The notes below the pieces were generated by a model. That model saw nothing but the letters and a program-made list of their open reading frames with translations. It had not been told where the DNA came from and did not search any database. 64,000 bases of DNA from NCBI RefSeq assembly GCF_012184415.1, contig NZ_VTOX01000001.1, positions 310,001-374,000 on the forward strand, read 5' to 3'. This DNA comes from Ramlibacter lithotrophicus. GTDB lineage: Bacteria > Pseudomonadota > Gammaproteobacteria > Burkholderiales > Burkholderiaceae_C. The position numbers and the translations under genes were made by a program. Positions 28,128 through 51,720 of this stretch are shown here, piece after piece; position 1 is the first letter of the stretch, and each line of letters opens with the position of its first letter.

Positions 28128-34168
<6,041 letters not shown>

Positions 34169-34172
<4 letters not shown>

Positions 34173-36253
34173 GCCCCCGGTTGGAATCGAACGCCGCCCC
34201 GCCGCCGGAACAGGAGCAGGTCAACATCCTGGTGGTGGACGACCTGCCCGAAAAGCATGTCGTCTTCCGGACCATCCTGGACGAGCTGGGGCAGAACATC
34301 GTCAGTGCCCGCTCGGGCAAGGAGGCGCTGGCCTACATCCTCGAGATGGAGTTCGCGGTCATCCTGCTCGACGTCAACATGCCGGACATCGACGGCCTGG
34401 AGACGGCGGGGCTGATCCGGCAGTACAAGAAGTCCGCGCAGACGCCGATCGTGTTCATCACGGCCTACGTCGACGAGGTGCAGGCCAAGCGCGGCTATGC
34501 GCTGGGTGCGGTCGACTACATCCCGTCGCCGGTGGTGCCGGAGGTGCTGCGCTCGAAGATCCGCGTCTTCGTCGAGCTGTTCCGGATGAACCGGCAGCTG
34601 CAGGTGCAGGCCGCCGCGCGGGAGGCGCTGGCGCGGTCCGAAGCGGCGCGTGCCGCCGCCGAGGAAGCCATCCACCGCGCCGACTACCTGGCCGAGGCGA
34701 GCCAGCTGCTCGCGCGCTCGCTCGACCTCGACGACACGATCCGGGCCCTGTTCGAGGTGGCGGTGCCCATGCTGGGGGATCGCGCCGTGCTGGCGCTCGC
34801 CAATCCCGATGGCAGCCTGGCGCGAATCGAAACCCATCCGGCGCCGCCCGATGCCAGCGACCCGCTTCCGGAGGGGTTGCGCGCGGCATTGGCGCGCGTC
34901 ATGGAGTCGCGCCAGTTCGAACTGCGGCGCGATGGCCGCCAGGCGATGGCGTTCTGCCCCCTGCTGGGCGGCGACCGCTCGCGCGGCGCCGTGGTGCTGG
35001 TGGCGGACGCAGACAGGATGGATGCGCCACGGCTCGCGCTCGCCAAGGAAGTGGTGAGCCGCGCCTCGATCGCGATGGAGAACGCCCGCCTGTACTTCGC
35101 CGTGCAGGAGGCCGACCGTCGCAAGAACGAGTTCCTGGCGATGCTGGCGCACGAGTTGCGCAATCCGCTGGCGCCGATCCGCAATGCCGTGCACATCATG
35201 CAGGGCGGGGACGTGACGCAGCTGACCATGAACTGGGCGCGCGACGTCATCGGCCGCCAGGCGGACCACATGGCGCGGCTGATCGACGACCTGCTCGACG
35301 TGTCGCGGATCGTGCAGGGCAAGGTCGTGGTCAAGCCGGAGCGGCTGACGCTGCGCGAACTGGTCGACCGGGCCGTGGAAGGCAGTTCGCCGCGGGTGGC
35401 CGGCCGTGACCAGTTGCTGTCGGTGCAGCTGCCACCCGAGGAGATCGAGCTCGACGGCGATGCGGTGCGGCTGGCGCAGGTGCTGGCCAACCTGATCAAC
35501 AACGCGTCGAAATTCTCCGGGCCCAACACCCGGATCGCCCTCACAGCGACCTATTTCGCCGGCGAGCTGAAGATCTCCGTGCGCGACGAGGGCTCCGGCA
35601 TCGAGCCGGCCTTCCTGCCCCACATCTTCGACCTGTTCGCCCAGGGCGACCAGTCGCTGGACCGGTCCCAGGGCGGCCTGGGCATCGGCCTCACGCTGGT
35701 CAAGCACCTGGTGGAGCTCCATGGCGGGCGCGTCGCTGCCCACAGCGACGGGCCCGGGACCGGCACCGAGGTCGAGGTCTACCTCCCGGCCCGCCCGGCG
35801 CCGGCCGCCGAGGCGGTCACGGTGGCGACGGACGGCCGCGAAAGCATTTCGCGCGGCAAGGCGCCCGGCCGGATCCTGGTCGTCGACGACCTGGCGGCGT
35901 CGGCCGAGACGCTGATGACGCTGCTGGAGATGGAAGGCTTCGAGGTCAAGGTGGCCAACGAAGGCATGAGTGCGCTGCAGATCGCCGAGCAGTTCCGGCC
36001 CGACGTCGTGCTGCTGGACATCGGCTTGCCGGGCATGAACGGCTTCGAGGTCGCGCACCGCCTGCGCCTGCAGCCGGGGTCGCGCGATGCGCTGCTGATC
36101 GCGCTCACCGGCTACGGCGAGGCGGAGAGCCGCTCCCGTTCGGCCAAGGCGGGGTTCGATTTCCACATGGTCAAGCCAGCGGACGTCAACCTGCTGCTGT
36201 CCATGCTCGCCAACCCGCAGCAGGCGCGGCGTGCCAGCGCGAAAGTGGCGTGA
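34169..36253 (+). CDS. Hybrid histidine kinase (receiver - GAF-like - HisKA - HATPase - receiver)
   Basis: This 694-residue soluble kinase starts at a GTG overlapping the previous stop (GTGA, 34169-34172). An N-terminal receiver ([17 protein letters not shown]) is followed by a coiled coil, a GAF-like region, HisKA with His328 ([12 protein letters not shown]), HATPase ([24 protein letters not shown]) and a C-terminal receiver ([17 protein letters not shown]). In the first receiver the usual Lys before Pro is replaced by Ser (VDYIPSPVV), so its phosphotransfer may be altered. Coupling to the poly-HAMP kinase suggests the two form one phosphorelay; the first receiver could take phosphate from it. 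Confidence 0.92.
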
Positions 36254-36281
36254 CGCGGCCGGAAAGCGGGCGGCCCGCTGC

Positions 36282-36287
36282 TACAAT
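36282..36287 (+). promoter_or_regulatory. Probable -10 box of tRNA-Ser
   Basis: TACAAT at 36282-36287 lies 14 bases before the mature 5' end of the tRNA, a suitable place for its -10 box. No clear -35 is visible. Confidence 0.5.
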
Positions 36288-36300
36288 GGCGGGCTTCGCA

Positions 36301-36391
36301 GGAGAGGTGGATGAGCGGTTTAAGTCGCACGCCTGGAAAGCGTGTGAGGGTTCATAGCCCTCCGCGGGTTCGAATCCCGCCCTCTCCGCCA
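36301..36391 (+). tRNA. tRNA-Ser (anticodon GGA)
   Basis: The sequence folds as a type II tRNA with acceptor stem GGAGAGG/CCTCTCC, anticodon stem CACGC/GCGTG around loop CTGGAAA (anticodon GGA, reads UCC and UCU), a long variable arm, T-arm CGGGTTCGAATCCCG, discriminator G and encoded CCA at 36389-36391. It is intact. Its 3' end is the left attachment site of the integrated element. Confidence 0.97.
36378..36391 (+). other. attL: attachment core within tRNA-Ser
   Basis: The last 14 bases of the tRNA (CGCCCTCTCCGCCA) recur exactly at 51191-51204, next to the integrase gene. The left copy is the one that completes the tRNA gene. The element is therefore bounded by 36392 and 51204. Confidence 0.85.
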
Positions 36392-36401
36392 GGACACTAG
36401 G

Positions 36402-36426
36402 AAACACGGGCCTTTGCGGCCTGTTT
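36402..36426 (+). terminator. Hairpin after tRNA-Ser at the element's left end
   Basis: AAACA (36402-36406) pairs with TGTTT (36422-36426) and GGCC (36409-36412) with GGCC (36418-36421), loop TTTGC, with a two-base bulge. The element may supply this as a replacement 3' end for the tRNA transcript. The T-run is weak. Confidence 0.4.
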
Positions 36427-36511
36427 CTCTTATGTACCCAACAAAAAATCCACCTTTAATTTAGCGCCTGAGCGGCGGTCGCTGCTCGACGCGCTGTTGC
36501 AATATCCACTG

Positions 36512-36739
36512 ATGCGCCATCTCTGGAAGGTCTGGAAAGCAAAATACTGGGGCCTGTCGATGCGGACGGACCTAGAGGACCTGAGCTTTTGGGAGGAAGG
36601 CGGCCGGCTCGACTACCCCCGCTGGCGTCGGGCACTGCGCAAAGTTAGAACCTGGGGCGCGGCGCATCCGTACGCGGCCAGCATGTGGCTGATCACGCTC
36701 CTGGGCACACTGGCCAGCATCATGGCGGCTTTGCGATAA
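36512..36739 (+). CDS. Small membrane protein, hypothetical
   Basis: This 75-residue open frame encodes a basic N-terminal half rich in Trp and Arg and a C-terminal hydrophobic segment (MWLITLLGTLASIMAAL). A TTG five codons upstream is an alternative start. It is the only plus-strand gene candidate in the element. Base composition is less extreme than in the flanking repeats. I do not recognise it; no clear ribosome-binding site. Confidence 0.45.
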   Translation: MRHLWKVWKAKYWGLSMRTDLEDLSFWEEGGRLDYPRWRRALRKVRTWGAAHPYAASMWLITLLGTLASIMAALR

Positions 36740-36769
36740 ACAGCAGGCGCCGGTTGTGGAGCTGGCGCC

Positions 36770-37550
36770 ACTATCTCCCGCGGCGATCGACGTCGGCACG
36801 AGGCCCTGGCGCTGCCCGGCGGACACGTGGCCGGCAAGAGGCCCCGGCGGTGCCGCTCTGGTGGCCGCCTGCGGCGATCGACGTCAGCACGGGCTCTCGC
36901 GCTGCTGCCGGCGCACCGTGCCCAGCACGCGGCGCTGGCGGCACGGCCGGCGCACGCGGCTCTGGTGGCCGCCCGCTGCGATCGACGCCAGCACGCGGCT
37001 CTGGTGGTGCTGCCGGGCGATCGACGTCGGCACGAGGCGCTGGCGGTGCACGCCGTGGTCGGCATGAGGTGCTGCCGGTGCTGCCGGCCGGCGCACGATG
37101 CGGTCGGCATGAGACTGGTGGTGAGAGAGGAGCCGGTGGTGCTGCCGCGCTGATCGACGTCAGTACGAGGACCTGGTGGTGCTGCCGGCGCGCACGCCGT
37201 GGTTGGCACGAGGCGGCGCTGCAGCGATCGGCGTCAGCACGAGGCTCTGGTGGCCGCCCCGCGGCGCATGCCGTGGCCGGCATGAGTGCCTGGCGGTGCT
37301 GCCGCCCGCAAGCCGTGGCCAGCACGACGCGGTGCTGCGGCGATTGACGTCAGCACGAGGCCCTGGCGGTGCCGCCGACGCGCACGCCGTGGCCAGCACG
37401 AGGCGGCGCTGCAGTGATCGGCGTCAGCACGAAGCTCTGGCGGCCCGCCCGCGGCGCACGCGCGTGGCCAGCACGAGGAGCTGGTGCCGGCGCACGCCAT
37501 GGCTGGCACGAGGCCCTGGCGGTGCTGCCGTCGCCCGGCGCCGCGGCCTC
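36770..37550. repeat. Degenerate GC-rich repeat array, left block
   Basis: These 780 bases hold no credible gene. They are built from about 17 degenerate copies of a core close to CAGCACGAGGC, usually preceded by GATCGACGT (type A, e.g. 36785, 36876, 36980, 37019, 37152, 37226, 37342, 37416) or by GCACGCCGTGGC (type B), and often followed by TCTGGTGG. Spacing varies from about 30 to 90 bases. A higher-order 180-bp repeat is clear: 37201-37290 matches 37381-37470 closely. Translations in no frame keep a constant peptide along the array. Confidence 0.8.
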
Positions 37551-37577
37551 GCAACGCCGCGGCGCGAGGCGCGCAGG

Positions 37578-38426
37578 CTACGCGGTCTTTTCGCCGGGCG
37601 CCCCCGCTCCCGGCCCATCCGCTTCGCCTGGCACGAAGCGAATCCCAGACTCCGCGCCATGGGTCTTCGCTGGCCTCACGGTGATTGCGCGCAGCGCCTT
37701 GGCTGCCGCCTTCCCGATCTTCTTGCGCGCCTCATCGGCCTTGTCGCCCTCGAGGACCTCTCGCTTGATGACTTCCGCGGTAAGAACGTCGCGGATCTGG
37801 TCCGTGTCGATCTTCACGTCCGGCGACACGCGGCGCAGTTCGCGGCGGATCACGTCGAGCACTGGTTCACTCAGCAGCAGCGCGCCCACGAAGAAGCGCG
37901 ACAAAGCTTGGCGCTGAGTGTGGTAGTCGTTCAGGACCGACTTCTGCCAACCCTCTTTGCAGAGGAGGAACAGCAACTCCAGATCCGCCTCCGACCTGGG
38001 GTTGATCGTGGTGAAGTCGATATTCACCACGAGCTCCTGCTCGATGGGCTTCAAGAATGCAATGTGATAGACGCGCCACGACACGCCATTGGTGAGCAGG
38101 ACCCAGTCGACGCCTTGGTTCGCGGCATAGTCAACTGCCTGCTTCACGTGGGCCTCTTTCAGATCGAGCCCGATGGCCTTGACCTCGATCAGCGTCTGCA
38201 ACACGCCCTCGATCTTGACGGCCAAGTCGCAGAAGGTTCCCCGGATGGCGAACTCTGAAGTGACCTCCGCGTACTTGTCGTACCCGAACAGCTCCGCGAG
38301 CATGTCCTTGACGATCGTCACGGTGTCCGCTTCGCCGACGTCGCGCGCCCGCGCGGCGTTGACGATAGGCTGGTAACGCTTGACGGCGGCCACGAGCCGC
38401 TCTGCGACCTTCTTCGGGATTGCCAT
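37578..38426 (-). CDS. PD-(D/E)XK nuclease-like protein (HsdR N-terminal / type IV restriction-like)
   Basis: This 282-residue protein resembles the N-terminal nuclease domain of type I restriction subunit HsdR and the predicted type IV restriction endonucleases. The motif is intact: D67 in GTFCDLAV, then E81-V-K83 in TLIEVKAIG, followed by the usual VKQAVDYAANQGVDWVLLTNG. No helicase domain is present, and no methylase or specificity gene is next to it. The start at 38426 is an ATG with the family-like opening MAIPKKVAERL. It lies alone between two repeat blocks at the end of the element after the tail genes, the usual place for cargo genes. A role in defence against other phages is inference. 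Confidence 0.8.
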   Translation of the reverse strand: MAIPKKVAERLVAAVKRYQPIVNAARARDVGEADTVTIVKDMLAELFGYDKYAEVTSEFAIRGTFCDLAVKIEGVLQTLIEVKAIGLDLKEAHVKQAVDYAANQGVDWVLLTNGVSWRVYHIAFLKPIEQELVVNIDFTTINPRSEADLELLFLLCKEGWQKSVLNDYHTQRQALSRFFVGALLLSEPVLDVIRRELRRVSPDVKIDTDQIRDVLTAEVIKREVLEGDKADEARKKIGKAAAKALRAITVRPAKTHGAESGIRFVPGEADGPGAGAPGEKTA

Positions 38427-38499
38427 GTCGGTCTCCTGCAGGGACCTCGGAATTAAGGGCGCTCGGGTGGCACGTGTCAATCGGCAAAGACGAGCCCGC

Positions 38500-39190
38500 T
38501 GCCGCGCAGGCGACAGCCGACGGGGCGCCGGTAGGACGGGGCGGCGCCGCAGTGATCGGCCCGCACGAGGCTCTGGCGGTGCCGCCGGCGGTCGACGTCA
38601 GCACGGAGCTGGTGCCGGAGGCGCGCACGCCGTGGCTGGCATGAGGCGGCGCTGCAGTGATCGGCGTCAGCTCGAAGCGCCCCGTCACCGCGCCGCCTCT
38701 CGGGCGGCGGCAGGGCCATCGCGCGCGAAGCGGCGTGCCCCTCGGCTGACGCCGATGCGAGCGGCGAGCTGCAGTGGCAGGGACAGGGGCAGCGCCCAAG
38801 GCTGGCCACCATCGGCGCCGGCAGCGATCGGCAAGGCCATCGCGTGCCGTGCACCCAGTCGACGGGAGGACCACTGCGCGAGCAACCGTCACTGATGCCA
38901 ACCTCGAGCCGCGCGGGGGCAGCACGATCAACCAGGGCGGCCGGCGTGCGTGTGCGCAGCCCTGGGCGGGGTGTGACACGGTCATCCGCTCGCGCGAGCG
39001 CAGGGCACCAAACGGCAGGGCCATCGCGCGCGAAGCGGCGTGCACAGGCCGGCGCCGATGCGAGCGGCGCGCGGCAGTTGCAGGGCTGCGCCGAAGGCTG
39101 GCCCACCATGAGCGCCCGTCGCGCGCCGGCCTCGAGGGCAGCGCAGGGCCGGACGATGGAAACGATCAGCCGCAGGGAGGCGCGCGCAGG
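38500..39190. repeat. Degenerate GC-rich repeat blocks, right side
   Basis: Two repeat types fill this gene-free stretch. At 38545-38680 the same cores as in the left array recur (CAGTGATCGG, GTCGACGTCAGCACG, GCACGCCGTGGCTGGCATGAGG). From 38709 on, a different unit appears: CAGGGCCATCGCGCGCGAAG and what follows occurs at 38711 and again at 39016, 305 bases apart, with a shorter relative near 38,832. No supported gene lies here. Confidence 0.75.
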
Positions 39191-39212
39191 GCGCTAAGCA
39201 ACCGCGCTCGGC

Positions 39213-39605
39213 TCAATGCACTTGCTGCTGATGGTGCCCACCCCGCCCGGCAGCAAGCACAGCCCAGCGCGCCACGTGGTTGACGCCCAGCCCCAGGCGG
39301 CGTAACTCGAACCCGTTCGGCGCCACGCCGATACGCGAGCGCAAGAACGTCCCGAGTGGGTACGCGCCTTCGATGCCCAGCTCCTCGAGCGTGGTCAAGA
39401 GTCTCCGCGCTTCGACGTTGTCGCACGAGCGCGCGTGCTGAATGAGCCCGGCACAAGTCCACTCGCCTTCGCCCATGAGCGCCCAAACGTCTTGCAGCAG
39501 CGCGAAGAACCCAGTCGATGGCCGAGCGGCCGGCGTACCCTCGACCGCTCGCCGCAGCGCGCGCACCTCGATCAGCAGCGCCTGAAGAAGAAGCTCACTC
39601 GTCAT
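39213..39605 (-). CDS. Phage hypothetical protein
   Basis: This 130-residue protein follows the 109-residue gene and the tail-tip genes on the minus strand. It has an N-terminal amphipathic helix (LLLQALLIEVRALRRAVE) and a basic, His/Gln-rich end. I recognise no domain. Codon use fits a real gene, and the ATG at 39605 is 18 bases after the preceding stop. Confidence 0.6.
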   Translation of the reverse strand: MTSELLLQALLIEVRALRRAVEGTPAARPSTGFFALLQDVWALMGEGEWTCAGLIQHARSCDNVEARRLLTTLEELGIEGAYPLGTFLRSRIGVAPNGFELRRLGLGVNHVARWAVLAAGRGGHHQQQVH

Positions 39606-39623
39606 ATGCGGCCCCGCGACCCG

Positions 39624-39953
39624 TCACACCTGGTCCAGTTTGCGCTGCACTTCCGCCGCCTCTTCGGCCGCCGCCTTGATGCGGTCCATGAAGTACCAGA
39701 GATCGTCGTTGCGGTAGGTGCCGTCCGGCTTGTCCGGCGCCCACTCGGCGGCCGGGCCCACCAGCGCCTCGAACATCTTGCCGCGAATTTCGTAGGTCTC
39801 GAACTGCTGCGGGATGATGAACGCGCCGGCATCGTCCACGCGGCCGACATCCACGCGAACGTATCCGGGCTCGCGCGGCGACGCCGGAACCTCCTGCAAA
39901 GCGCGGATCTCGAGGCGAAGGGTTTGGGCTGGGACGCTGATGATGCGAGGCAT
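39624..39953 (-). CDS. Phage hypothetical protein next to tail-tip gene
   Basis: This 109-residue protein lies 20 bases downstream of the gpJ-like gene. It has a beta-rich middle (YVRVDVGRVDDAGAFIIPQQ) and a helical, acidic C-terminal end (FMDRIKAAAEEAAEVQRKL). It may be a tail accessory or chaperone protein, judging only from position. Confidence 0.65.
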   Translation of the reverse strand: MPRIISVPAQTLRLEIRALQEVPASPREPGYVRVDVGRVDDAGAFIIPQQFETYEIRGKMFEALVGPAAEWAPDKPDGTYRNDDLWYFMDRIKAAAEEAAEVQRKLDQV

Positions 39954-39973
39954 GTGTTGCTCCTTAGAAAAAA

Positions 39974-42900
39974 TTACCGCGGCCAGGCGGCGATGTCGTA
40001 CGTGGTGCCGTCAATGACCATGGCGAGCCAGATATTGGCCGTTGAAGTGCCGGGCTTGTTGGCGCTCGAAAACGTGGCGGTGGCAGCCCCGGATGCCGAT
40101 CCACCGCTGAACGTGTACGTGTGTCCGGAGTTGCTGATCTGAACTGCACTGGCGGCAGTCCCGCCCGCGGGCAGGTAGACGCCAGTGTGGTTGTGGGTCG
40201 CCGCAGCAAATGCAGTTGCAACGTTGCCGTCGAAATATTTCGCGTTGAGGTTCCCTACGACCGTCGTGTTGTCCGTGTACATCGGACCGCTGACGCTCAA
40301 CCCATAAGCACCGCCGGATCCATACGCGAGAACACCCGCGCCGCTCGCCGCCACTGCAACGCCCTCCACGCCGTAGCCACTGCCGCCAGTGGTGGACCCA
40401 AACACGCCGTCGCCTCCGGCGCTCGCGTAACCGCCCAACGCGATACCGCCAGAACCTCGTGCGGCGCTGGTGCCAGCTTCAACGCCGCCAGCCGTAGCGC
40501 GCAGCGTGTTCACCCTAAGTGCTTGGTACACAGAGCCGTCGAAGTTCGAGCCATTGATGATCGCAGAGCCTGTGACGGCGAGGTTCCCGCTTAGCGTGGC
40601 GTTGCCGGTGCTGCCGTCGATCGTGAACGTCGAGGTGCCACTGCTGTTCTTGCCAGTGAGTCCGCCCGCCCCGATGAAAACACCGCCCACACCGCTGCTG
40701 CTCTTGAACAGGTTGGCGTTGCTCATCACGATGCTGGTGCCGCTGCTCGCGAGGATCGAAGACGTCACGTCGGCATAGTCCGCAGGCCTGCCGCCGCTGT
40801 CCGTCACCTTGTTCCACGCCAGCGCCGCGATCTGCGCGCTGCTCGCCTGCCCGGCCGTCGCACTCACCGGCCCGACATACGCGCCGGCCGTGCCGCTCGT
40901 GTTGACGCACCGCGCCCAGAAGTACCGCGCGCCATCGGTGGGGAGTAGCCCGAGCTGGTCATAGCTGCTGGCCAGCCCCCAGGTGATCCGGCTCGCGGCG
41001 CCGAGCACGTTCGTCGTGCCCATCCAGAGCTCGACGTAGGCGAGATCGTCTTCGGCCGGTAGCGTGCCGCTCACCCTGATGCCGCCGATGATGGCCGTGG
41101 CCGACAACCCCGTCACGGACCCCGGCGTCGCCGTGATGCCGGCCACAGCGCTCACCGGCCCGACGAAGTCGCCCAAGTTGCCGCTGGTGTCGACGCAGCG
41201 CACCCAGAAGTATTTCGTGCCATCGCTCGCCGCCAGCCCGAGCTGGTCGTAGCTGCTGGCCAGCCCCCAGGTGATGCGGCTCGCGTTCGCGATGTTGCTG
41301 TCCGGTCCCATCCAGACCTCGGCATACGCCAGATCCGGGTCGCTCGGCAGGATGCCGCTGATCCTGATGCCGTGCTCGATGCCGGTCGCCGCGAGGCTGG
41401 TCACGTCGCCCGGCGCGTCACTCTTCCCCGCCACCTGGTGTGTGATCTGCAGCGACCAGTCCGACACCGCGATGCTGTTCCTGGTGCGCAGCTGGCAGTA
41501 GCCGACGTCACCTTCCTTCGCGCCCAGCAGGTAGACGTAGGTCTCGGCCGCCGGCACGCTGACGGTGTGCCAGCCCGCCTCGGTGGCCAGCCGGTAGCGC
41601 ACCTCCACCTGGCCGCCGAACAGCAGGCTCTGGTCCGTGATCGCGTCCCACGCCACCTTGACGCGCGGCACGATGGTGCCGTCCCCCTGGCGCAGCAGAT
41701 CCGCCGTGCCGCTGGTGACGGCGATGTTGGCCGGCGGATCGATGTCCCAGGGGCTGGGCAAGTTGGTGTTCGCGGCGTAGCCCTGCGGATCGAACGCGGC
41801 GTCGAGCTGGTAGATCGCCGCGGCGGTTTCCTTCAGCGTGAGCTGGATGCTGCCGTCGTGCGTCCAGGTGTAGCCCAGCACGATGAATTCCTTGGCGCTC
41901 CACCCGTAGCGGGCCAGCGTCAAGGCGACTGTGTCGAAGAGCTCGATGGGGTAGGCGCGCAGCTTGAATGGCAGCGTCACGCGCAGGCTGTCGCGGTCGT
42001 CCCGGATGATGATGCCGGCAACGTGCAGCGCCTGCGGCGAGTAGGTCACCGCCGGCATGTCCACTTCCTGCGCCAGCCAGGCGCCGTCGCGCGCGATCAG
42101 CGCGGCCGGCGCCAGTGGCGTCAGCGCCACCTGCTTGTACCCCTGCGCGCCGTCCCAGATGCGCGGCGTGATGACGTTGACCTTGTCGGCCCGCGCCTTG
42201 TGGGCGCCGATCACGATGGGGCTCTGCTGCTCGCTGCCGTCCGAGCCGCGCCGCACCACCGCCAGGTCGGCCTCGGTGAGCGTCATCACGGACGCGGTGT
42301 GCACGCCGGCCCGCAGGTAGAACTGGCCGCCGGCGTACGCCCACATGCCGCCCATGGCCTGGCAGAGGTCGTCGAGCGCGTCCTTGGCCGGCGCGCCGTA
42401 GGGGAGGACATAGCCGGCCGTGAACAGCTCGCGGGTGTCGGTGACGCCGCTGACGACGTAGCCGGTGGAGATGTCGCAGGCGTTCGCCGCCGCTGCGATG
42501 CGGGCATCCTCCGCGGCCGTGATGCTGGTGCGCTTGCCGAAGCTGGGGTGCGTCAGCAGATGCCGCACCATCAACGCCGGGTTCTCGCTGAAGGCGGTGC
42601 TGGCGTCGCGCGGGTCGTACAGCTTGGCGCCGCGGATCAGCGCCGACACGGACGGCAGGCCGGACGGGAATGCGGTCTCGTCGTAATCGAACTCGCACAC
42701 CAGGTAGGCCACGCCCCGGGCCCGGTGGTCGGCCGTCCAGTCACCGGGGAACAGCGCCTGCAGGTCGGCGTCGGCCGTCTGGTCTGCCGTGCCCAGGTAG
42801 ATGCGAACCTGGGCCTTGCTGACCTGGTCCTCGTACTGGTAGGTGATCGAGCCGTCGCCGGTGTACGGGGTGCTGCCGTCCGTGGTGATCGTGGCCGTGG

Positions 42901-43492
42901 TGCCGACGACGGACACCTGCAGCTGCGTGGTCACCGCGTCCTGCCCGGTGCCGGTGGTGTAGGTGGCCGAGATCGTGTCGGCGACCGGCGTGTGGCCCAG
43001 CGTGACGGTGGGCCCGGCGGCGAACGGCTCGATGGCCGTGCCCTTGCGGGTGAGCATGTACGGCTCGCTGGTGACGTTGCCGGAGCCGTCCAGCGTCACG
43101 GCCTGGTCGTTGAAGTAGACCGTCTCGACGCCGTCGATCTCATGGCCGGCCAGCGCGATGGCCAGGCAGAACTTTTCCTTGGTGGCCCCGGTCGACGCCC
43201 GGGCGAACACCGTGCCGGCCTTGCGCACGCGGCCCATGACCAGGTCGCGCTGGCCGATGGTGGTCACCACGTTGTGCATGCGGTCCACCTGGCTGGCGTT
43301 GTAGGCCTCGCGCTGCTTGCGCTGGGCCTTGCGGGCCTGCGACTGGGACATCGCGGCGCTGCCCAGGAGCATGCCGCCCGCCCAGATCGTTGCGGCGTAG
43401 TCGACCAGAAACGCGCCGATGGCGTAGGCGAGCGAGGACACGGCGACCTTGGCCGTGAGCGCGTAGCCGATGGCGGAGATGAATACGGGCAT
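39974..43492 (-). CDS. Phage tail tip / host specificity protein (gpJ-like)
   Basis: This 1172-residue protein is the central tail-tip or receptor-binding component. It has a hydrophobic N-terminal stretch with an Ala-rich helix (residues 5-50), a long tail-protein region (residues about 60-620), then two fibronectin-III-like repeats carrying the same peptide SRITWGLASSYDQLGL in each, and a fibre-like C-terminus rich in Gly, Ser and Ala with LSGNLAVTGSAIINGS. The repeats are also evident in DNA, 278 bases apart (about 40,960 and 41,238). The stop-start order with the DUF6950-like gene is TAA overlapping ATG by one base. It is long and complete. Confidence 0.9.
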   Translation of the reverse strand: MPVFISAIGYALTAKVAVSSLAYAIGAFLVDYAATIWAGGMLLGSAAMSQSQARKAQRKQREAYNASQVDRMHNVVTTIGQRDLVMGRVRKAGTVFARASTGATKEKFCLAIALAGHEIDGVETVYFNDQAVTLDGSGNVTSEPYMLTRKGTAIEPFAAGPTVTLGHTPVADTISATYTTGTGQDAVTTQLQVSVVGTTATITTDGSTPYTGDGSITYQYEDQVSKAQVRIYLGTADQTADADLQALFPGDWTADHRARGVAYLVCEFDYDETAFPSGLPSVSALIRGAKLYDPRDASTAFSENPALMVRHLLTHPSFGKRTSITAAEDARIAAAANACDISTGYVVSGVTDTRELFTAGYVLPYGAPAKDALDDLCQAMGGMWAYAGGQFYLRAGVHTASVMTLTEADLAVVRRGSDGSEQQSPIVIGAHKARADKVNVITPRIWDGAQGYKQVALTPLAPAALIARDGAWLAQEVDMPAVTYSPQALHVAGIIIRDDRDSLRVTLPFKLRAYPIELFDTVALTLARYGWSAKEFIVLGYTWTHDGSIQLTLKETAAAIYQLDAAFDPQGYAANTNLPSPWDIDPPANIAVTSGTADLLRQGDGTIVPRVKVAWDAITDQSLLFGGQVEVRYRLATEAGWHTVSVPAAETYVYLLGAKEGDVGYCQLRTRNSIAVSDWSLQITHQVAGKSDAPGDVTSLAATGIEHGIRISGILPSDPDLAYAEVWMGPDSNIANASRITWGLASSYDQLGLAASDGTKYFWVRCVDTSGNLGDFVGPVSAVAGITATPGSVTGLSATAIIGGIRVSGTLPAEDDLAYVELWMGTTNVLGAASRITWGLASSYDQLGLLPTDGARYFWARCVNTSGTAGAYVGPVSATAGQASSAQIAALAWNKVTDSGGRPADYADVTSSILASSGTSIVMSNANLFKSSSGVGGVFIGAGGLTGKNSSGTSTFTIDGSTGNATLSGNLAVTGSAIINGSNFDGSVYQALRVNTLRATAGGVEAGTSAARGSGGIALGGYASAGGDGVFGSTTGGSGYGVEGVAVAASGAGVLAYGSGGAYGLSVSGPMYTDNTTVVGNLNAKYFDGNVATAFAAATHNHTGVYLPAGGTAASAVQISNSGHTYTFSGGSASGAATATFSSANKPGTSTANIWLAMVIDGTTYDIAAWPR

Positions 43493-43896
43493 TACCCTAC
43501 CCTCCAGGCCGCCTTCGCGAAGCCCATACCGCAAGCCACCATGCCGCCGGCGCCCGGGCCCAGCAGGCTGGTGCCGTTGCACACGCCCACGGCGGGATGG
43601 TTGCCCATGTCGAGCAGCACGATGTCGCCCACATTTGCCATGAGTGGCGGCACGCGCTCGCCAAGCTGTGAATCCACCAACGCCGCCAGCCCGCCACGTT
43701 CACGCAGGATCCGGCCGGCTTGCCGCTCGTCGCTGTAGGTGCCGCGCAGGCCAGCCGCCATGTCGTATCCGGTGACGGCCATGACAGCGTCGGCGCTGAA
43801 GAGAAAGCAGTCGTTCACGCCCCAGGCGAACGGCATGTCTTGCCGCTCGCGGGCGAACTCCGCCAGGCGCAGTTGCCAATCGTGCAGGCGTTTCAT
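43492..43896 (-). CDS. DUF6950-like phage protein (NlpC/P60-like fold)
   Basis: This 134-residue protein has the pattern FAWGVNDCFLFSADAV, with a Cys at the position of the NlpC/P60 nucleophile, and a later NHPAVGV with His. Proteins of this type sit between a DUF2163-like protein and the tail-tip protein in many phages and in gene transfer agents, where they may cut peptidoglycan during injection. The ATG at 43896 overlaps the preceding stop (ATGA). Confidence 0.82.
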   Translation of the reverse strand: MKRLHDWQLRLAEFARERQDMPFAWGVNDCFLFSADAVMAVTGYDMAAGLRGTYSDERQAGRILRERGGLAALVDSQLGERVPPLMANVGDIVLLDMGNHPAVGVCNGTSLLGPGAGGMVACGMGFAKAAWRVG

Positions 43897-44465
43897 CGCA
43901 GGAACCACTCCCGCGAAGGCCAGATGATTTGCTTGTCGGACTGATCGTTCACGAACTGGAACGCCAGGTCGCCTGGGTAGAACACCTGCTGATCCGCGTG
44001 GGTGTAGGTCACGGGCACGCCGCGCAGGAGGTCGACGGCGGTGCTCTCGGCGGTGGCCGCAACAGAGCAGGTTTCGCCGTCCTCCTGGATGGTCAGGGTG
44101 TCGCCCAGCCCGGACCAGACGACGTCGGCGTCGATGACGGCGTAAGTGGTCGGGTCCAGCAGCGCGACGTAGATCGTGACCGGCGTGCCCTGCCACTCAT
44201 CGGCGCCGTCCAGCGCCAGCGAAACGTCGGAGGCGGCTACACCACTGATCTCGAAGGAAAGGCCCTTGATCTCGCCGGGCGAGTTGTCGACTTGGCTGAT
44301 GCTGCCCAGCCCGCCGGCGGCGTAGGTAGTACCGCCCCAGGTCAGGGCGAGGTTGCCGCTGTTGCGCGCGATGGTGCCGCTGGCAAATTCCATCTTGACG
44401 AGCAGCGCCATGGGCACCAGCCCGCCGGCGAGCGCGTTGGTCACGTCAGAGGTGAGGGTCTTCAT
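43893..44465 (-). CDS. DUF2163-like phage tail protein
   Basis: This 190-residue protein starts MKTLTSDVTNALAGGLVPMA and has the beta-rich body typical of the tail hub proteins found before an NlpC/P60-like gene (YVALLDPTTYAVIDADVVWSG, VTYTHADQQVFYPGD). It is the first gene of the tail-tip module present here. The upstream tail genes (tape measure, tube, DUF2460-like) that normally precede it are missing. Confidence 0.82.
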   Translation of the reverse strand: MKTLTSDVTNALAGGLVPMALLVKMEFASGTIARNSGNLALTWGGTTYAAGGLGSISQVDNSPGEIKGLSFEISGVAASDVSLALDGADEWQGTPVTIYVALLDPTTYAVIDADVVWSGLGDTLTIQEDGETCSVAATAESTAVDLLRGVPVTYTHADQQVFYPGDLAFQFVNDQSDKQIIWPSREWFLR

Positions 44466-44599
44466 GCTGCCCTCCGCATCGTCTGGCCACGCACAGGCAA
44501 GGCGCTGCGCGCCTCTGCGGAGGTGAGGGGCAAGCCCCCCAAGTCAACACGCGTCGAAGTCATGACAATCCTTGAGATTGAAAGCAAGTCCAATAAAGA

Positions 44600-44727
44600 G
44601 GTGGCACCGTGCCCGCTGCCCCGGCGCAGCGGTCCCGAGGTGCCTCGCCTTGCGGCCGGGCAAAAAAGGTGGCACCGTGCCCGCCGCCCCCGCAGCGGTC
44701 CCGAGGTGCCTCGCCTTGCGGCCGGGA
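44600..44727. repeat. 68-bp tandem repeat at the early/tail junction
   Basis: Two direct copies start at 44600 and 44668. Each runs GGTGGCACCGTGCCCGC, a short variable part, then GCAGCGGTCCCGAGGTGCC and TCGCCTTGCGGCCGGG. Coding on either strand would give only repeated low-complexity peptide. The repeat lies exactly where the missing structural genes would be. Confidence 0.85.
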
Positions 44728-44737
44728 TTTGCATACA

Positions 44738-44923
44738 TCAGCGTGTCGGCGGCGGGAGCGTCACCGATCCCGCGCCGAGCCAGAACAGCACGGCGCCGAC
44801 AGCGACCCATGCCAGCGGGACGTAGACGAGCGCCAGGCCGTAGCCGATCATGGCCAGCCCGCCGAAGGCGAGCAGGTCCCGCAGGTCGACCAGGCGTGCG
44901 AGGAGTGTGAGCTTCGCCCTCAT
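44738..44923 (-). CDS. Small phage membrane protein
   Basis: This 61-residue protein has two hydrophobic segments (LLAFGGLAMIGYGLALVYVP, then WVAVGAVLFWLGA). Its ATG overlaps the TGA of the original frame of the upstream gene (TGATG at 44925-44921), a sign of translational coupling. A holin-like role is possible but unsupported. Confidence 0.65.
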   Translation of the reverse strand: MRAKLTLLARLVDLRDLLAFGGLAMIGYGLALVYVPLAWVAVGAVLFWLGAGSVTLPPPTR

Positions 44924-45143
44924 CAGCGCTTCGCCTTGAGCGTCACGTAGCGCGCTTGGAGCGTGAGGTGCTCGTGCTCGGCGGCCGGATCGGGCGACCG
45001 GCGCGCGGACTCGTCGCGCGCCTGGCCGCTTCCCACTCGGCCAGATTGCGCAGGCCCTTGCGTTTCAGGTGCTGACGGAAGGCCGCAACATCCTCGATGT
45101 CTCGTTGGCCGCGGTGGGGATTCTTGGCGTATTCAGTAGCCAT
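44923..45143 (-). pseudogene. Small phage protein with apparent 2-base frameshift
   Basis: From the ATG at 45143 the frame encodes 66 residues and stops at 44943. After residue 41 (about 45,020, in a GCGCGC run) the sequence stops looking like protein in this frame, while the frame two bases on reads RDESARRSPDPAAEHEHLTL and ends TGA at 44925-44923, overlapping the next ATG. The simplest reading is a 2-base insertion (or a sequence error) in a gene of about 72 codons. Function unknown. Confidence 0.6.
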
Positions 45144-45178
45144 GGTGCGTTCTCAGTTGGGTGGTGGTGTGGGTCGAG

Positions 45179-45865
45179 TCAGGCGGCGTTCAGCCAGCCC
45201 TCTTTGGCGGCCCTCTTGGCGGGCTTCACAGCAGGGACCTGCTGCGGTGCGGGCGGGATCCACTTCCGCACGTGCTCGGGCAGCTCCGCGGCCTCGATAA
45301 ACCCGTAACGCGCCGCCTCGAGCAGGAACTGCGAAATGGTGCTGTTCGGCTCCGTGAGGTTGAAGCCCCGAAGGGGCATCGGGCGCAGGTGGCCGCCGAG
45401 TACTCCGTTCTGTGCCAGCCGGTCCCGCAGTTCCCACTCAGTGCGGACGTGGTCGGCCAGGCCGATGGCGGCCAGGGCCACGGCCCGCACGTGCGCCTGA
45501 TGAGTCGGCAGCAGATCGGCGCAGATCGCCAGGCTCACCTCGGCGCGCAGGCCTTCGACCACTTGCTTCTGCAGGCCAACGGCCTCGCGCAGGACAGCAA
45601 TGCGGTGCGTCACCTCGCCGAGGCTGCGCGCGACCTCATCGCGCTTGGCGATGCCGGCCGCGGCGGACTCCGAGAGCAGCGCATTCGCTTCGGCGCGAAT
45701 TGCATTGCGCGTGTCCGATCCCGTGTTGCCCATCTGCTGCTGGATCTCCTGCCGCTGCCTTTCGGCCTCGCGCAGCTGCAGCTGCAGCTCGGTGTACCGA
45801 TTCCAGGCGGCCGAGTAACGCGGGTCGCGCTCCAGGCGAGTGTCGACGGTGGTGGCTTGGTTCAT
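45179..45865 (-). CDS. Phage hypothetical protein, coiled coil
   Basis: This 228-residue protein has a coiled-coil region at residues 18-110 (LREAERQRQEIQQQMG, VGLQKQVVEGLRAEV) and a C-terminal part with WIPPAPQQVPAVKPAKR. The ATG at 45865 is preceded by the GAGAGAG motif of the shared leader. No known domain is recognised. The first start in the open frame is more than 100 codons upstream and runs through the leader repeat, so it is unlikely. Confidence 0.7.
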   Translation of the reverse strand: MNQATTVDTRLERDPRYSAAWNRYTELQLQLREAERQRQEIQQQMGNTGSDTRNAIRAEANALLSESAAAGIAKRDEVARSLGEVTHRIAVLREAVGLQKQVVEGLRAEVSLAICADLLPTHQAHVRAVALAAIGLADHVRTEWELRDRLAQNGVLGGHLRPMPLRGFNLTEPNSTISQFLLEAARYGFIEAAELPEHVRKWIPPAPQQVPAVKPAKRAAKEGWLNAA

Positions 45866-46134
45866 GGTGGCTCTCTCTTTCGAGGTTGATGCCGCAGTGC
45901 GGCGGATGTGCGAAGCCGCCGGCCATGGCGACTCCGCGGGAACACTGGATAAGGCTCGCCGCGCCGGGTCGGAGTGAGTCGCAGAAGTTGACCCCCCCCC
46001 TCCGAAACTCGCGCGCGCAAAAAAATGACTAGGGGCTCGGTTTCCGGTGTGGGGTCCCAAGGAATTGACCCACCCCTCCCCCTGGGCTTCTTCACGTGGA
46101 ACATGCGAGGCCACTCGCTGAGCCGCGGCGCTCG
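45866..46134. repeat. Gap with copy 1 of two element-specific leader repeats
   Basis: On the minus strand, the leader of the coiled-coil gene contains GCCGCACTGCGGC (about 45,895-45,907), part of a block starting TTCGCACATCC that recurs near 47,150-47,185. Further upstream, CTAGGGGCTCGGTTTCCGG at 46029-46047 recurs exactly at 47677-47695 together with flanking GGA-TTGACCCACCCC. No gene is supported here. Confidence 0.7.
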
Positions 46135-47019
46135 TCATGTGGCGGCGACCTCTTGCCGACGAAGGGCCTCGCGAACTCGGTCGGTGTACTGGGCGAAGCT
46201 TTCGCCGCCGTGCGCTGGCCATGCCGCCTGGTCCCACTTGCCGAGCCCGAGCTCGACTCCCTTCGCCTCGATGCTGGTCCGCCCGGCGTCCCATGCCTTC
46301 GTGGCTGCGTCGGGCAGCCGCGCAATCGCCTCCGCCTCCCGCAGCTGCTGGCGCAGCACGCCGATGGCGTAAGGGACGCCCTTGGCGACGCCTGCCGCGA
46401 TGCGAGCCGCGCCCGCGAACTGCTCAACGGCCACGCCTTTCTGCAGGAGCGCAATCACGCTCGGGTTGCCGACCACCGCATCCTGCAGGCCGGCCTCCCG
46501 CATTGCCTTCACGGCTTGCGCATCAACACACACAACGGCGTCGTGCGCTGGCAGTGTGTGTGGTTCTTGGAGTCTGGAGTCTGGAGTCTGGAGAGCATTA
46601 CATTTGCCATGCTCCGCTGATGCGGTCGCATCCTCCGGAACATGCGACCGCATCGAGGAGGATGCTTCCGACGCGTGCGCAGGCAACGCTTTCTTGTCGC
46701 CGCCGTGCCACCGCGCATTTGCGCTCGACCGAGCCTTGCTCTGCTTGGAATGGAAGCGCGCAATCTCCGCGTCGCAGCGCGTCTGGTGCCAGCCGTCCTC
46801 GCGCTTTTCAAAGAACTCTTGCAGCACGGTCTGGACGGCCTCGCGCTCTTCGCGCGTCCTTGCTCCGACCAGCCGCTGAACCTCCTTCAGCTCGAGCGGT
46901 AGCGCCGCCTCCGTCTTGTACACCTTGCGGATCAGGCGGCCGAGGGCCGCGTCCTCGACGAAAGACAGGTGCGCCGTTGCCTCCGAGTAGTCGCCGATGT
47001 GAAACTCGAAGTAGTTCAC
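46135..47019 (-). CDS. DUF1376-domain phage protein, probable replication accessory
   Basis: This 294-residue protein opens VNYFEFHIGDYSEATAHLSF, the signature of DUF1376 proteins that phages place with replication genes. The GTG start at 47019 has a GGAGG eight bases upstream. Residues 1-95 form the domain (LELKEVQRLVGARTREEREA, VLQEFFEKREDGWHQTRCD); the rest is hydrophilic with a helical C-terminus. The frame stays open upstream into the AlpA-like gene, so a fused product from 47535 (466 residues) cannot be excluded. Confidence 0.8.
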   Translation of the reverse strand: MNYFEFHIGDYSEATAHLSFVEDAALGRLIRKVYKTEAALPLELKEVQRLVGARTREEREAVQTVLQEFFEKREDGWHQTRCDAEIARFHSKQSKARSSANARWHGGDKKALPAHASEASSSMRSHVPEDATASAEHGKCNALQTPDSRLQEPHTLPAHDAVVCVDAQAVKAMREAGLQDAVVGNPSVIALLQKGVAVEQFAGAARIAAGVAKGVPYAIGVLRQQLREAEAIARLPDAATKAWDAGRTSIEAKGVELGLGKWDQAAWPAHGGESFAQYTDRVREALRRQEVAAT

Positions 47020-47129
47020 GCGGCTACCCTCCATGGGCCGGACCGCGCCTGGTGCAGCACGGAGTGCCCGTTTCGCGCCCGCGCGAAGGTGGGCGCGCGC
47101 ACCCGCCCGGCGGCGTCGATAGTGGCCAT
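47016..47129 (-). CDS. Mini-gene coupled to the DUF1376 gene
   Basis: This 37-residue frame starts with ATG at 47129, four bases after AGAGGGG, and ends in TGA overlapping the GTG of the DUF1376 gene (47016-47019). The product (MATIDAAGRVRAPTFARARN, then a short end) is basic. It could be a leader peptide that couples translation. It lies in a different frame from the long open frame around it. Confidence 0.5.
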   Translation of the reverse strand: MATIDAAGRVRAPTFARARNGHSVLHQARSGPWRVAA

Positions 47130-47535
47130 TGAGCCCCTCTCTTTCGGGATTGGTGCCGCGGTGCGGCGGATGTGCGAAGCCGGCAGAGGCGGCCCCGCGT
47201 GAACTCTGGACGCGGCGCGCAGAGCCGGCGCACGCTGAGGCGCTGATCGCTTCCATCAACATCGAGGCGCCGAGAATCGCGAAGCCGGCGGCGTGCTCGC
47301 GCAGCGCGTTCGCGAACAGCTCCGGACCGCTCCCGCGTTCGCATGTGGAGTCGTCCGGTGCGCGGCGCTGGACGTCCTGCAGCCAGGCGTGAACGTCGGC
47401 GGGATGCCAGCGGCCGTCCGCGATCGGGGCAGGGAACGCGCCCGCCGTGACGAGCGCGGCCAGCGTGCCCGGCGCGAGCTTGCACCTGCGAAGAACCTCT
47501 CGCTTCGGGATCAGGGTAGTGGCCTTGCGGCTCAC
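47130..47535 (-). CDS. AlpA-like DNA-binding protein, 3' end uncertain
   Basis: A GTG at 47535 with GGAGG five bases upstream begins a protein whose first 60 residues look like an AlpA/MerR-type helix-turn-helix: REVLRRCKLAPGTLAALVTA, then WHPADVHAWLQDV. After about residue 110 the translation becomes leader-repeat sequence, and there is no stop before the DUF1376 gene in the same frame. Either the protein is longer than expected, fused to DUF1376, or a stop codon has been lost. The end given here is only where the next leader starts. Confidence 0.5.
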
Positions 47536-47795
47536 CCCGACCTCCGCAACAGCGCAGCGCGCGGCCGCTGCACCCACTCCGCCATCTGCGCAAGGGAGGA
47601 GGGCGCTCCCGCTTCGCCTTGCTGCCTCCTGCCTTCAACCCCCCCGGGGTAGTTTTTCTTTTCCATAAAACTCAAGCTAGGGGCTCGGTTTCCGGACGCC
47701 GGCGTGAAGGATCTGACCCACCCCCGCCCCCCGGGATGCCTCCCGCGGAACATCGCCCCCGGCCCTTGAGCACGCTGCTGCGTCACTGCGAACCT
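47536..47795. repeat. Gap with copy 2 of the leader repeat
   Basis: CTAGGGGCTCGGTTTCCGG at 47677-47695 is identical to 46029-46047, followed in both by AAGGA-(A/T)-TGACCCACCCC and later GGAACAT. It lies between the two AlpA-like genes. No gene is supported. Confidence 0.65.
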
Positions 47796-48014
47796 TCAGC
47801 GCGGATGGCCGGCGGCGGAGGAGGCGGCGCCCGCCTGCGCATCCCTGAATGCCGCGAGCGAGGCGATCTTCCACACGGTGGTGCGCGGCCCCAGCTTGAT
47901 CGGAGGGGGAAAGTCGGCGCGCTCTTTGGCCCAGCGCCACAGGGTTGATTCGCCGATACCAAGGAACTGCGCAGCCTGGCGCGGCCTCACCGAGTTCGTT
48001 TCTTGAGTATTCAT
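47796..48014 (-). CDS. AlpA family phage regulator
   Basis: This 72-residue protein is an AlpA-type winged helix-turn-helix: VRPRQAAQFLGIGESTLWRW, then KERADFPPPIKLGPRTTVWK, and SLAAFRDA. In prophages and satellites these proteins control integrase or excision genes. The ATG at 48014 gives the usual length; a start 14 codons upstream is less likely. Confidence 0.85.
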   Translation of the reverse strand: MNTQETNSVRPRQAAQFLGIGESTLWRWAKERADFPPPIKLGPRTTVWKIASLAAFRDAQAGAASSAAGHPR

Positions 48015-48089
48015 GCTGCGTCCCATGCTGCCCCGCGACAAGCGGTATGGGGCCAATTGGACGCAAGCTCAGCGATTTACGCCATTACG

Positions 48090-48782
48090 CTATTCACGAA
48101 AGTCTGTGCGACTGCGTAATGCATTGGCGCTGGCGCGGGCGCGGTCGATCGCATCGCGAACGGGGCGCGCCCCAGTTTGCAGGCCGAAGTGCGCGCCGAG
48201 CCGCTGCATGAACGCGACGAACCAACCGTCCTGGCTTATCGGCGGCAGCGTGCCGAAGCGGCGCCAGTACGCCTGCACCACAAGTCGTGTGAGCTCCGCT
48301 GCCGTCAGCGCATCGGGCTTCGACCTGGTGTCAGCGGGAATCGACTCAACGGCGTCGCGGGTAGCCGCTTCGAGCACCTCAACCCAATCCCAAGTGCGGG
48401 ACAGCAGCCCCGTCGGATGAATCGTGTGCGCCTCGATCCCCTCGACGGCGTCACCGCCCAGCCGTTGCATCGCCTTCAGCAGATCTCCGGCCGCGACGAC
48501 GACTGCCTCGACCTGCTCACGCTCGTGCGCGAACGTCAGGCGGCGCCGACCCTCCATGACAACTTGCGCGATCCTCCCGCAGGCAGCGAGGAAATCGTCA
48601 GCTTCCTGCGGGGTGTGCCGCTGCCGCTCCAGGATCACGGGAAGCAGCTGCAGGCGCAGGGAAGCCGGCAGGAACTCGGGATCCTCCCACCCGCCAGCGT
48701 CACCGAGAAAGGCCGGCTTCCGCAGCGGCAGCGCCCGTCGGCCGAGGGCCTTCGCCCCGGCTGGTTTCTTGGCCGGCGTCAT
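48090..48782 (-). CDS. Phage hypothetical protein
   Basis: This 230-residue protein opens MTPAKKPAGAKALGRRALPL and is predicted to be mainly helical, with no signal or membrane segment. No domain is recognised. Its ATG overlaps the stop of the upstream gene (ATGA, 48779-48782), so it belongs to the early leftward operon that starts near the integrase. Confidence 0.7.
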   Translation of the reverse strand: MTPAKKPAGAKALGRRALPLRKPAFLGDAGGWEDPEFLPASLRLQLLPVILERQRHTPQEADDFLAACGRIAQVVMEGRRRLTFAHEREQVEAVVVAAGDLLKAMQRLGGDAVEGIEAHTIHPTGLLSRTWDWVEVLEAATRDAVESIPADTRSKPDALTAAELTRLVVQAYWRRFGTLPPISQDGWFVAFMQRLGAHFGLQTGARPVRDAIDRARASANALRSRTDFRE

Positions 48783-49399
48783 TGGATCCTGCGGAGGTGC
48801 CGCACGTTCTGGTCCGGATCGCGCAACTGGTGGAGCGGAAAGACGTAGGCCCTGTCGCCCGGCGCTTTTGCGAGGTACCCGTGGAAGTACGTCACCCGCT
48901 TACCGTGCTGGTCCATGTACTCGCCGCACGAGGTGGTGACCCTCCTCAACCGATATTCGTCGACGATCTCCACCAACTGGAGGTGATAGTCCTCGCCGGG
49001 CGCCCAGATTGCCGCGGCGTCACCGACCTTGAAGCGGGCCGGACTGGGCGGTGCTGCCGTCAGCATCGCATCCCGCCCCGGATCAGGGAGCGTTTGCGAC
49101 TCATGGAACCGCCGCAGCTCCCCCGTGATCTGCCTCACGAGGGCCGTGTACGCGGCGCGATTGCCGCGCGGGCCGTCTGACGTAAACCTTTGCTCTCTGG
49201 CATCCTCGAGGATCTCCTCCGCGAACTCGACGCAGACGCCCCTGTGCACGAAAGCGCCGCCAGGCATGACCTTGTCGGCTCGCTCGCTCCACATTTCCTC
49301 AAACACATTTCGCCTGCGGTAATCACGCTCGATGGTGGGCGTGATCAAGATGGTGACTTCGTCGTCAGCTTCAGTCGGGTTGCGCTGTTGTTCAGCCAT
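48779..49399 (-). CDS. Phage hypothetical protein
   Basis: This 206-residue protein starts MAEQQRNPTEADDEVTILIT. The second half contains a small beta-rich module (FKVGDAAAIWAPGEDYHLQL, VEIVDEYRLRRVTTSCGEYM) that looks like an SH3-like or Tudor-like barrel, but I do not recognise a named family. It overlaps the preceding gene by eight bases. Confidence 0.68.
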   Translation of the reverse strand: MAEQQRNPTEADDEVTILITPTIERDYRRRNVFEEMWSERADKVMPGGAFVHRGVCVEFAEEILEDAREQRFTSDGPRGNRAAYTALVRQITGELRRFHESQTLPDPGRDAMLTAAPPSPARFKVGDAAAIWAPGEDYHLQLVEIVDEYRLRRVTTSCGEYMDQHGKRVTYFHGYLAKAPGDRAYVFPLHQLRDPDQNVRHLRRIQ

Positions 49400-49640
49400 G
49401 GCCGAACTCCGCGATGAAGCTCTCTTGCAGGGCGCCCCCAATCGCTTGGGCGAGCTCTCGGGAGGCCTGTACGGTGTCAGTGCAGGCCGCCAAGTAGTCG
49501 TCCTGCGACGCGGGGGCCATCTGGGTAAACGCCTCGCGGCCGGGGCCGAACGTCATCAGGAGAAAGGCCTCGAGCTGGTTGAGCTTCGTGATCAGCTCTC
49601 GATGAGCCTCGCAGGCCTGGGCTATGCTTGTGGTAGCCAT
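49392..49640 (-). CDS. Small phage hypothetical protein
   Basis: This 82-residue helical protein (MATTSIAQACEAHRELITKL to FIAEFGHG) is the first gene after the integrase on the same strand; a 111-base gap with no gene lies between. No domain is recognised. Confidence 0.62.
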   Translation of the reverse strand: MATTSIAQACEAHRELITKLNQLEAFLLMTFGPGREAFTQMAPASQDDYLAACTDTVQASRELAQAIGGALQESFIAEFGHG

Positions 49641-49751
49641 GATGTGCGGTTCCTTTCAGGGTTGCACGTTGTGGTCAGAGGGGGATCGCGTGTGCCGCAC
49701 GCCTTCCCCCTCGCTTTGCCGCTGCGCCGCGCGGCCCGGTTGCCTGGTGCC

Positions 49752-50996: not shown

Positions 50997-51061
50997 GTAG
51001 TCTCCTCGTTGGTACTTCGGTATCTGGAATTTTCTCCGCCATGTCTTGGTATCCAACGTGA

Positions 51062-51086
51062 TACCCAACAATCTAGCGTAGATTGT
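51062..51086. promoter_or_regulatory. Inverted repeat and arm-like site between int and attR
   Basis: ACAATCT-AGCGT-AGATTGT at 51068-51086 is a perfect 7-bp inverted repeat. It overlaps TACCCAACAA at 51062-51071, which also occurs at 36435-36444 near the left end. These may be integrase or excisionase binding sites, or the int operator. Confidence 0.45.
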
Positions 51087-51190
51087 GCGAGAGTGCAAGA
51101 GAGGATGCGAGAGGGATTATCGGCGCCGCTCCTCTGGAAATCAGCGCGCGCGAGAGTTTGCAAGACTTCCTGAAGTTCTATTCCGGCAGA

Positions 51191-51204
51191 CGCCCTCTCC
51201 GCCA
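51191..51204 (+). other. attR: attachment core
   Basis: CGCCCTCTCCGCCA is identical to the last 14 bases of tRNA-Ser (36378-36391). The bases before it differ from the tRNA, and the bases after it run into a terminator, as expected for the chromosomal side. Confidence 0.85.
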
Positions 51205-51210
51205 AAACAG

Positions 51211-51240
51211 AAAGCCCGCCATCGGCGGGCTTTGTGTTTT
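51211..51240 (+). terminator. Terminator displaced from tRNA-Ser by the integration
   Basis: AAAGCCCGCC (51211-51220), loop ATC, GGCGGGCTTT (51224-51233), then GTGTTTT. It begins six bases after attR, and before integration would have followed the tRNA. The left end of the element has its own weaker hairpin. Confidence 0.85.
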
Positions 51241-51542: not shown

Positions 51543-51720
51543 GAACCGGTTGCCGTGTCTCGGCCCATGGCATCGATAACGGGCGGCCGTGGACCGTGCG
51601 GCGCTCGCGACGGCAGGTTGACGAAACGCAACAATCAGATCGCCGACGTGGACGCGCGATAAAAGTCGAGGCAGAGTTCGGCACCGACAAGCTCAGCCAT
51701 TGGGTGTGTCGCAGATCCAC

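Follow-up and report, generated by a model that had tools for sequence, protein, structure and literature searches.

The repeats that flank a lone nuclease gene near the tRNA-Ser end of an integrated element are probably the remains of a neutral, decaying minisatellite, lying in a prophage remnant and interrupted by a mobile nuclease gene. Duplication of a ~37-bp unit would have produced a 74-bp dimer and, later, blocks of 190 bp; the presumed mechanism is slippage during replication or unequal recombination, of which slippage is the origin that we infer. Point mutations and small indels would then have made the copies drift apart, and a phage-type nuclease gene would have divided the array into two blocks, a long one on the left and a short one on the right. 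Entry of the gene into the array seems preferable to growth of the array around the gene, and the neutrality of the array, as judged from the one genome that carries it, likewise appears probable. Growth in tandem followed by decay, within non-coding DNA of a prophage, would thereby explain a repeat block as striking as this one.

Structure of the repeat array

The left block occupies positions 36,770-37,577 of the window (the whole stretch of 64,000 nucleotides that was analysed) and consists of ~37-bp units in two forms, with a 74-bp period, a 190-bp higher-order repeat and a [G + C] content of 73-78%, against 58-67% in windows over the nuclease gene. Its repetitive character, reported in the initial annotation, is real: 293 positions in 36,740-37,580 belong to repeated 10-mers, compared with 0-27 in 20 dinucleotide shuffles, and sites of the core CAGCACGAGGC lie far above background. 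In 36,770-37,550, 20 sites match this core at 8 or more of 11 positions and 14 at 9 or more, where 3.1 and 0.5 are expected per 780 bp from the rest of the window (excluding 36,001-39,300). Periodicity was also recovered, narrowly, by ungapped autocorrelation, in which lags 74, 190 and 116 alone (0.420, 0.401 and 0.394) exceed the maximum of 20 shuffles (0.392). TRF gave periods of 39, 74, 116 and 190.

The two unit forms differ ahead of the core, where one carries CGATCGACGT and the other CACGCCGTGGC. Because these forms alternate, the distances between cores in the centre of the array alternate between 31 and 43 bp, which sum to the 74-bp period; on the left of the array the spacing is less regular (38, 53, 39). 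The higher-order repeat exists as previously noted, with a period of 190 bp (74 + 116 bp) and not 180 bp: its copies at 37,143-37,271 and 37,333-37,461 are identical at 111 of 129 ungapped positions. The array is indeed not CRISPR-like, the best partner of each unit being 54-90% alike without gaps and the spacings being 31, 43, 38, 53, 39 and others. Compared with its own reverse complement, the array reaches a score of 47, equalled in one of 60 shuffles, a weak sign of inverted similarity.

The cores return beyond the nuclease gene, as had been observed. The right block (about 38,535-38,678, the reach of the repeat families) holds four of them, at 38,561, 38,599, 38,637 and 38,668, and its positions 38,558-38,678 are collinear with 37,317-37,435 in the left block; judged by this alignment, it is one further collinear copy of the array. 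The array starts ~380 bp from the att core, and the last core-like site of its left block (37,560-37,570) lies ~8 bp from the nuclease stop codon (37,578).

Twenty stretches of contig C1 from outside the window, which together cover 400 kb of this genome, contain no 600-bp stretch with a repetitiveness score above 96, against 198-210 for the array; the lack of an equally repetitive stretch in those 400 kb suggests that the array is a local event. Inside the window its score is exceeded solely by coding repeats (28.8-31.3 kb) and by a tandem module at 51.2 kb. The coding repeats belong to an ORF of 2,014 aa (28,128-34,172) with a nine-copy, 276-bp (92-residue) repeat, the C-terminal part of which we take to resemble a sensor kinase with receiver domains.

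With head-to-tail copies, a unit within ~10-100 bp (from TRF and core spacing), non-coding sequence and a single locus (among the 40 of 549 candidates scored in its own genome), the array has the features of a minisatellite. A published count of bacterial minisatellites, which are non-coding tandem repeats, used 90% identity (PMC2884548). The array resembles such minisatellites in its head-to-tail units of more than 20 bp, its non-coding nature and its single locus, but differs from them in that its copies are more degenerate (54-90%), occur in two alternating forms and are interrupted by a gene (PMC2884548). Another genome of the genus harbors a GC-rich intergenic tandem repeat like the array (L170:9113-9433), whose period (94 bp), sequence and copies (98% alike) are nevertheless different. 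It belongs to the set of stretches compared around related integrases and tail-protein relatives (see below), none of which matched the array at E up to 1e-3.

The unit spaced by 305 bp that was initially reported after the right block has the spacing given, 38,708-38,738 and 39,013-39,043 being identical over 31 bp, and proves to be a separate, simple duplication of ~110 bp (38,708-38,819 and 39,013-39,116; they score 122, whereas the best of 60 shuffles reaches 45). It is unrelated to the array: a derivation from it, direct or inverted, was rejected, as 49 and 48 of 60 shuffles score as high or higher.

The host element and the search for relatives of the array

Both array blocks lie inside a 14.8-kb integrase-bearing element (36,378-51,204) inserted in a tRNA-Ser(GGA) gene, which ARAGORN places at 36,301-36,391 on the plus strand, in keeping with the tRNA end named in the initial annotation. 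The 3' end of this gene (36,378-36,391) forms the left attachment-site repeat, and its exact 14-bp repeat on the plus strand (51,191-51,204), beside the integrase, the right one. The element encodes a tyrosine integrase (49,752-51,098, minus strand; PF13356, PF22022, PF00589; phrog_1), a phage tail protein (39,974-43,582, minus strand; PF13550, phrog_5616) whose relatives among phage records are two Roseobacter phages (28%), and a second phage tail gene (43,893-44,465); between its ends it also holds a DUF6950 gene and a DUF1376/primosome-like gene. Profile searches with a subset of its ORFs gave no match to a head or packaging gene. We call the element a prophage remnant because it has an integrase with att ends and tail genes, and no head or packaging match among the ORFs submitted. 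The motif TACCCAACAA, found on both arms of the element (36,435 and 51,062), is a candidate for an arm-type site of the integrase.

Related integrases (E up to 1e-60) are present in 15 of 59 genomes of the genus, counting the present one. Two of them (G001 and G015) show the arrangement of the window, with a tRNA-Ser gene at one end and, at the opposite end, the integrase next to an att repeat of 16 or 14 bp. In G017, G007 and G003, by contrast, the integrase lies directly beside the tRNA gene, and members of one family thus differ in which side of the att core holds the integrase.

No relative of the array was identified in 59 other genomes of the genus (E up to 0.001), 298 of the family or 398 of the order (both E up to 1e-6, in overlapping samples), with eight first-look candidates scored per genome in the genus and two in the family and the order. 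Matches at E up to 0.001 occur in 40 of 60 genus genomes, the present one included, and nothing exceeds 51 bits besides its own two array blocks. Four places with weak matches were inspected, and those in L005 and L014 were discarded as coincidences between GC-rich sequences, because they lie inside a long open ORF that we take to code for topoisomerase IV subunit A. Phage and plasmid records yielded no relative either (E limit 1e-5). Within the same genome, the 40 of 549 candidates that were scored comprised the array locus and one 32-bp match (E 6e-4), and thus not the many dispersed copies typical of REP/BIME elements.

Two scans of viral contigs for a pattern picked out 11 contigs and one contig, six of these 12 being repeat-rich near the match (71-93 repeated 10-mers), with at most 36 bits to the array among the best 40 matches. 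Five of them (L032, L038, L039, L041 and L042) have a repeat in common which, judged by eye, consists of QHEAA-type coding repeats; the sixth is L043. The surroundings of three tail-protein relatives (19, 19 and 5.3 kb) contain no match to the array at E up to 1e-3. The tRNA-Ser locus is present in 55 of 59 genus genomes, the present one included. Of 29 other loci retrieved, 28 show the end of the tRNA, followed by ~1.5 kb of DNA in 25 and by 1.1 kb, 0.14 kb and 3 bases in one each. None of the 28 is repeat-rich behind the tRNA (highest score 22). The 1.1-1.5 kb available in 26 other genomes is weak as a test, since there is no need for most of these sites to contain an element of this kind. 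Three conceivable sources of the array, namely the tRNA gene, the module that follows attR and the left end of the element, were likewise rejected, the scores lying within those of 100 shuffles. A literature search, which covered titles and the openings of abstracts and for some queries a part of the records, retrieved no published description of the array.

Just outside attR (51,191-51,543) lies a 163-bp tandem duplication with further copies of the tRNA-Ser 3' end, including one of 16 exact bp at 51,361. The same genome has a 176-bp tandem module, 76% alike, after its tRNA-Ser(CGA) gene (L212:1456-1834), and shorter matches (74% and 71%) follow tRNA-Ser(GCT) in two of 58 other genus genomes (L210:1501-1637 and L211:1501-1690). 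Tandem repeats behind the tyrT gene of E. coli are known as RtT, and the 163-176-bp modules are reminiscent of them. The Rfam model of RtT matches L211:1550-1688 alone, below threshold (25.5 versus 45 bits, E 0.18), and neither the window, L210 nor L212. These modules, which carry tRNA 3' ends, look more unusual than the array.

Coding, RNA and protein-binding readings

A decayed coding region for a repeat protein is a very unlikely source of the array. Open runs do extend up to 192 codons, and single copy pairs show uneven numbers of differences over the three codon phases (2/7/4 and 4/0/4). However, 188 of 200 shuffles contain an open run as long or longer, and the 13 stops in the array compare with 14.2 (sd 2.9) in 200 shuffles. 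The periods 74, 116 and 190 shift the reading frame, 39 alone being divisible by three. The favoured position differs among the six copy pairs (8/7/3, 2/7/4, 4/0/4, 4/5/2, 2/1/2 and 1/2/1), with no phase common to all in a comparison made without a formal test, and Pfam matched none of ten ORFs across the array block with an E value of 0.1 or less. The earlier statement that the array is not consistently coding is borne out.

The differences between copies are mostly, but not uniformly, transitions. The two higher-order copies (8/7/3 by phase) differ at 18 positions, by 14 transitions and four transversions, and the ratios in the six pairs are 14:4, 7:6, 5:3, 8:3, 2:3 and 0:4; transitions therefore prevail in four pairs and not in the two from the left part (2:3 and 0:4).

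A structured or regulatory RNA, one of the options initially offered, is extremely improbable. High [G + C] content, and nothing further, speaks for it. Folding of the whole block is slightly worse than that of shuffles on both strands (z +1.55 and +1.08, 20 shuffles each), eight folds of units gave z from +0.07 to +0.97, and Rfam matches neither block of the array with an E value of 1 or less.

The initial annotation also proposed a protein-binding array, that is, a set of sites for a DNA-binding protein such as an integrase arm, partition or packaging site. We regard this as decidedly unlikely. In its favour, when units are anchored on the core, the 22 bp ending with it seem better conserved (0.84-0.91) than the linkers (0.55-0.67). 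This contrast is favoured by the method, because the units were chosen by their core and sorted into forms by those very bases. When copies are compared directly, differences are not depleted in the sites. The three longest pairs have 5 of 18 differences (4.6 expected), 3 of 8 and 4 of 8 (2.6 expected for each) in the 11-bp core, and 10 of 18 (9.2 expected), 5 of 8 and 4 of 8 (5.1 expected for each) in the 22-bp block ending with the core, all about as expected. One of eight such tests falls below expectation, that of the 22-bp block in the pair 36,782 and 37,016 (0 of 4 differences, P 0.033). Moreover, arm sites of an integrase might be sought around its relatives, and nothing similar to the array is found around seven of them at E up to 1e-3 (~40 kb each around those of G001, G017, G007, G015, G003 and G009, and 20 kb for G038; the surroundings of an eighth, in G054, span 7.5 kb). 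The DNA behind the same tRNA in the 26 other genomes, the weak test described above, also argues against this reading.

The nuclease gene inside the array

The gene that separates the two blocks is an intact 282-aa ORF (37,578-38,426, minus strand), a nuclease gene as initially described, with an HSDR_N_2 domain and membership of phrog_17239. In the domain searches, which used a 300-aa reading (from 38,480), it scores narrowly above the cut-off of PF13588 (25.8 bits against 25) and matches phrog_17239 over nearly its full length (E 1.2e-98). Its translation contains CDLAVKIEG...LIEVKAIG, which may be the D...ExK catalytic motif of a predicted nuclease. Neither PADLOC nor NCBIfam gave a match, and among solved structures the sole hit has an E value of 0.38. 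A TTGACA box upstream of the gene (TGTCAA on the plus strand, 38,475-38,480) and an AGGAGA before its start were seen by eye; a promoter scan reported no site. Terminator-like sites number four, against 1.7 (sd 1.6) expected. No convincing target-site duplication was found at the gene, the sole candidate being one 9-mer (37,570 and 38,503).

Relatives of the nuclease occur at 63 genome loci, with many phyla named in their titles, in five viral contigs and in one phage record, that of Thermus phage Riverbug (46%). They are found in one of 59 other genomes of the genus (E 1e-10), the closest being in genome G030, and in none of 298 other genomes of the family (E 1e-30). The best 40 DNA alignments to these relatives, one per locus, all fall within 37,660-38,437. 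Repeat-rich DNA was found in 2 of the 121 tiles (700 bp each) that adjoin the 68 nuclease copies, compared with 6 of the 711 remaining ones (P 0.33, Fisher test; the gene position was set to 6001-6760 for loci without typed coordinates), and the two tiles concerned (L078 and L081) hold repeats other than those of this array. Since the alignments are limited to the ORF and arrays are not enriched beside the relatives, the gene appears to move alone. It agrees with single-gene nucleases of the HSDR_N_2/phrog_17239 type in its domain and phrog matches and differs from them in the array around it, as arrays are not enriched beside its relatives; its presence at the same locus as the array would most simply be a coincidence.

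The remaining suggestion of the initial annotation, a recombination scar that brings in cargo, holds insofar as the nuclease gene does interrupt the array. An active role of the repeats would go further, making the array a preferred entry site for cargo, where recombination from one unit to another would have captured the nuclease. The location of the gene inside the array, the core-like site so close to its stop codon and the collinearity of the two blocks are compatible with this. The tile comparison, in contrast, gives no sign of array-driven entry, and no other such array was found in the searched genomes, where few candidates were scored in each. We consider this role of the array very unlikely. 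A bolder reading, in which a platform of degenerate units at a tRNA end promotes the exchange of single-gene cargo and the nuclease is the present occupant, is very doubtful and is demanded by nothing that was found; if true, it would be a route for single genes into integrated elements that requires no integron or transposon. We accordingly keep to a decaying minisatellite that a nuclease gene probably entered.

Some surroundings of the nuclease relatives have features of their own. Luteimonas mephitis has, upstream of its relative, a worn array of 42 bp that is in part open in frame (L078:5369-5711), and a cyanobacterial MAG has, likewise upstream, a 41-bp tandem array with halves of 20 and 21 bp (L081:1370-1532). 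Finally, four of the 41 loci scanned among the 68 (L058, L069, L092 and L107) have a tRNA gene at a distance of some 450 bp or less from that of the nuclease.
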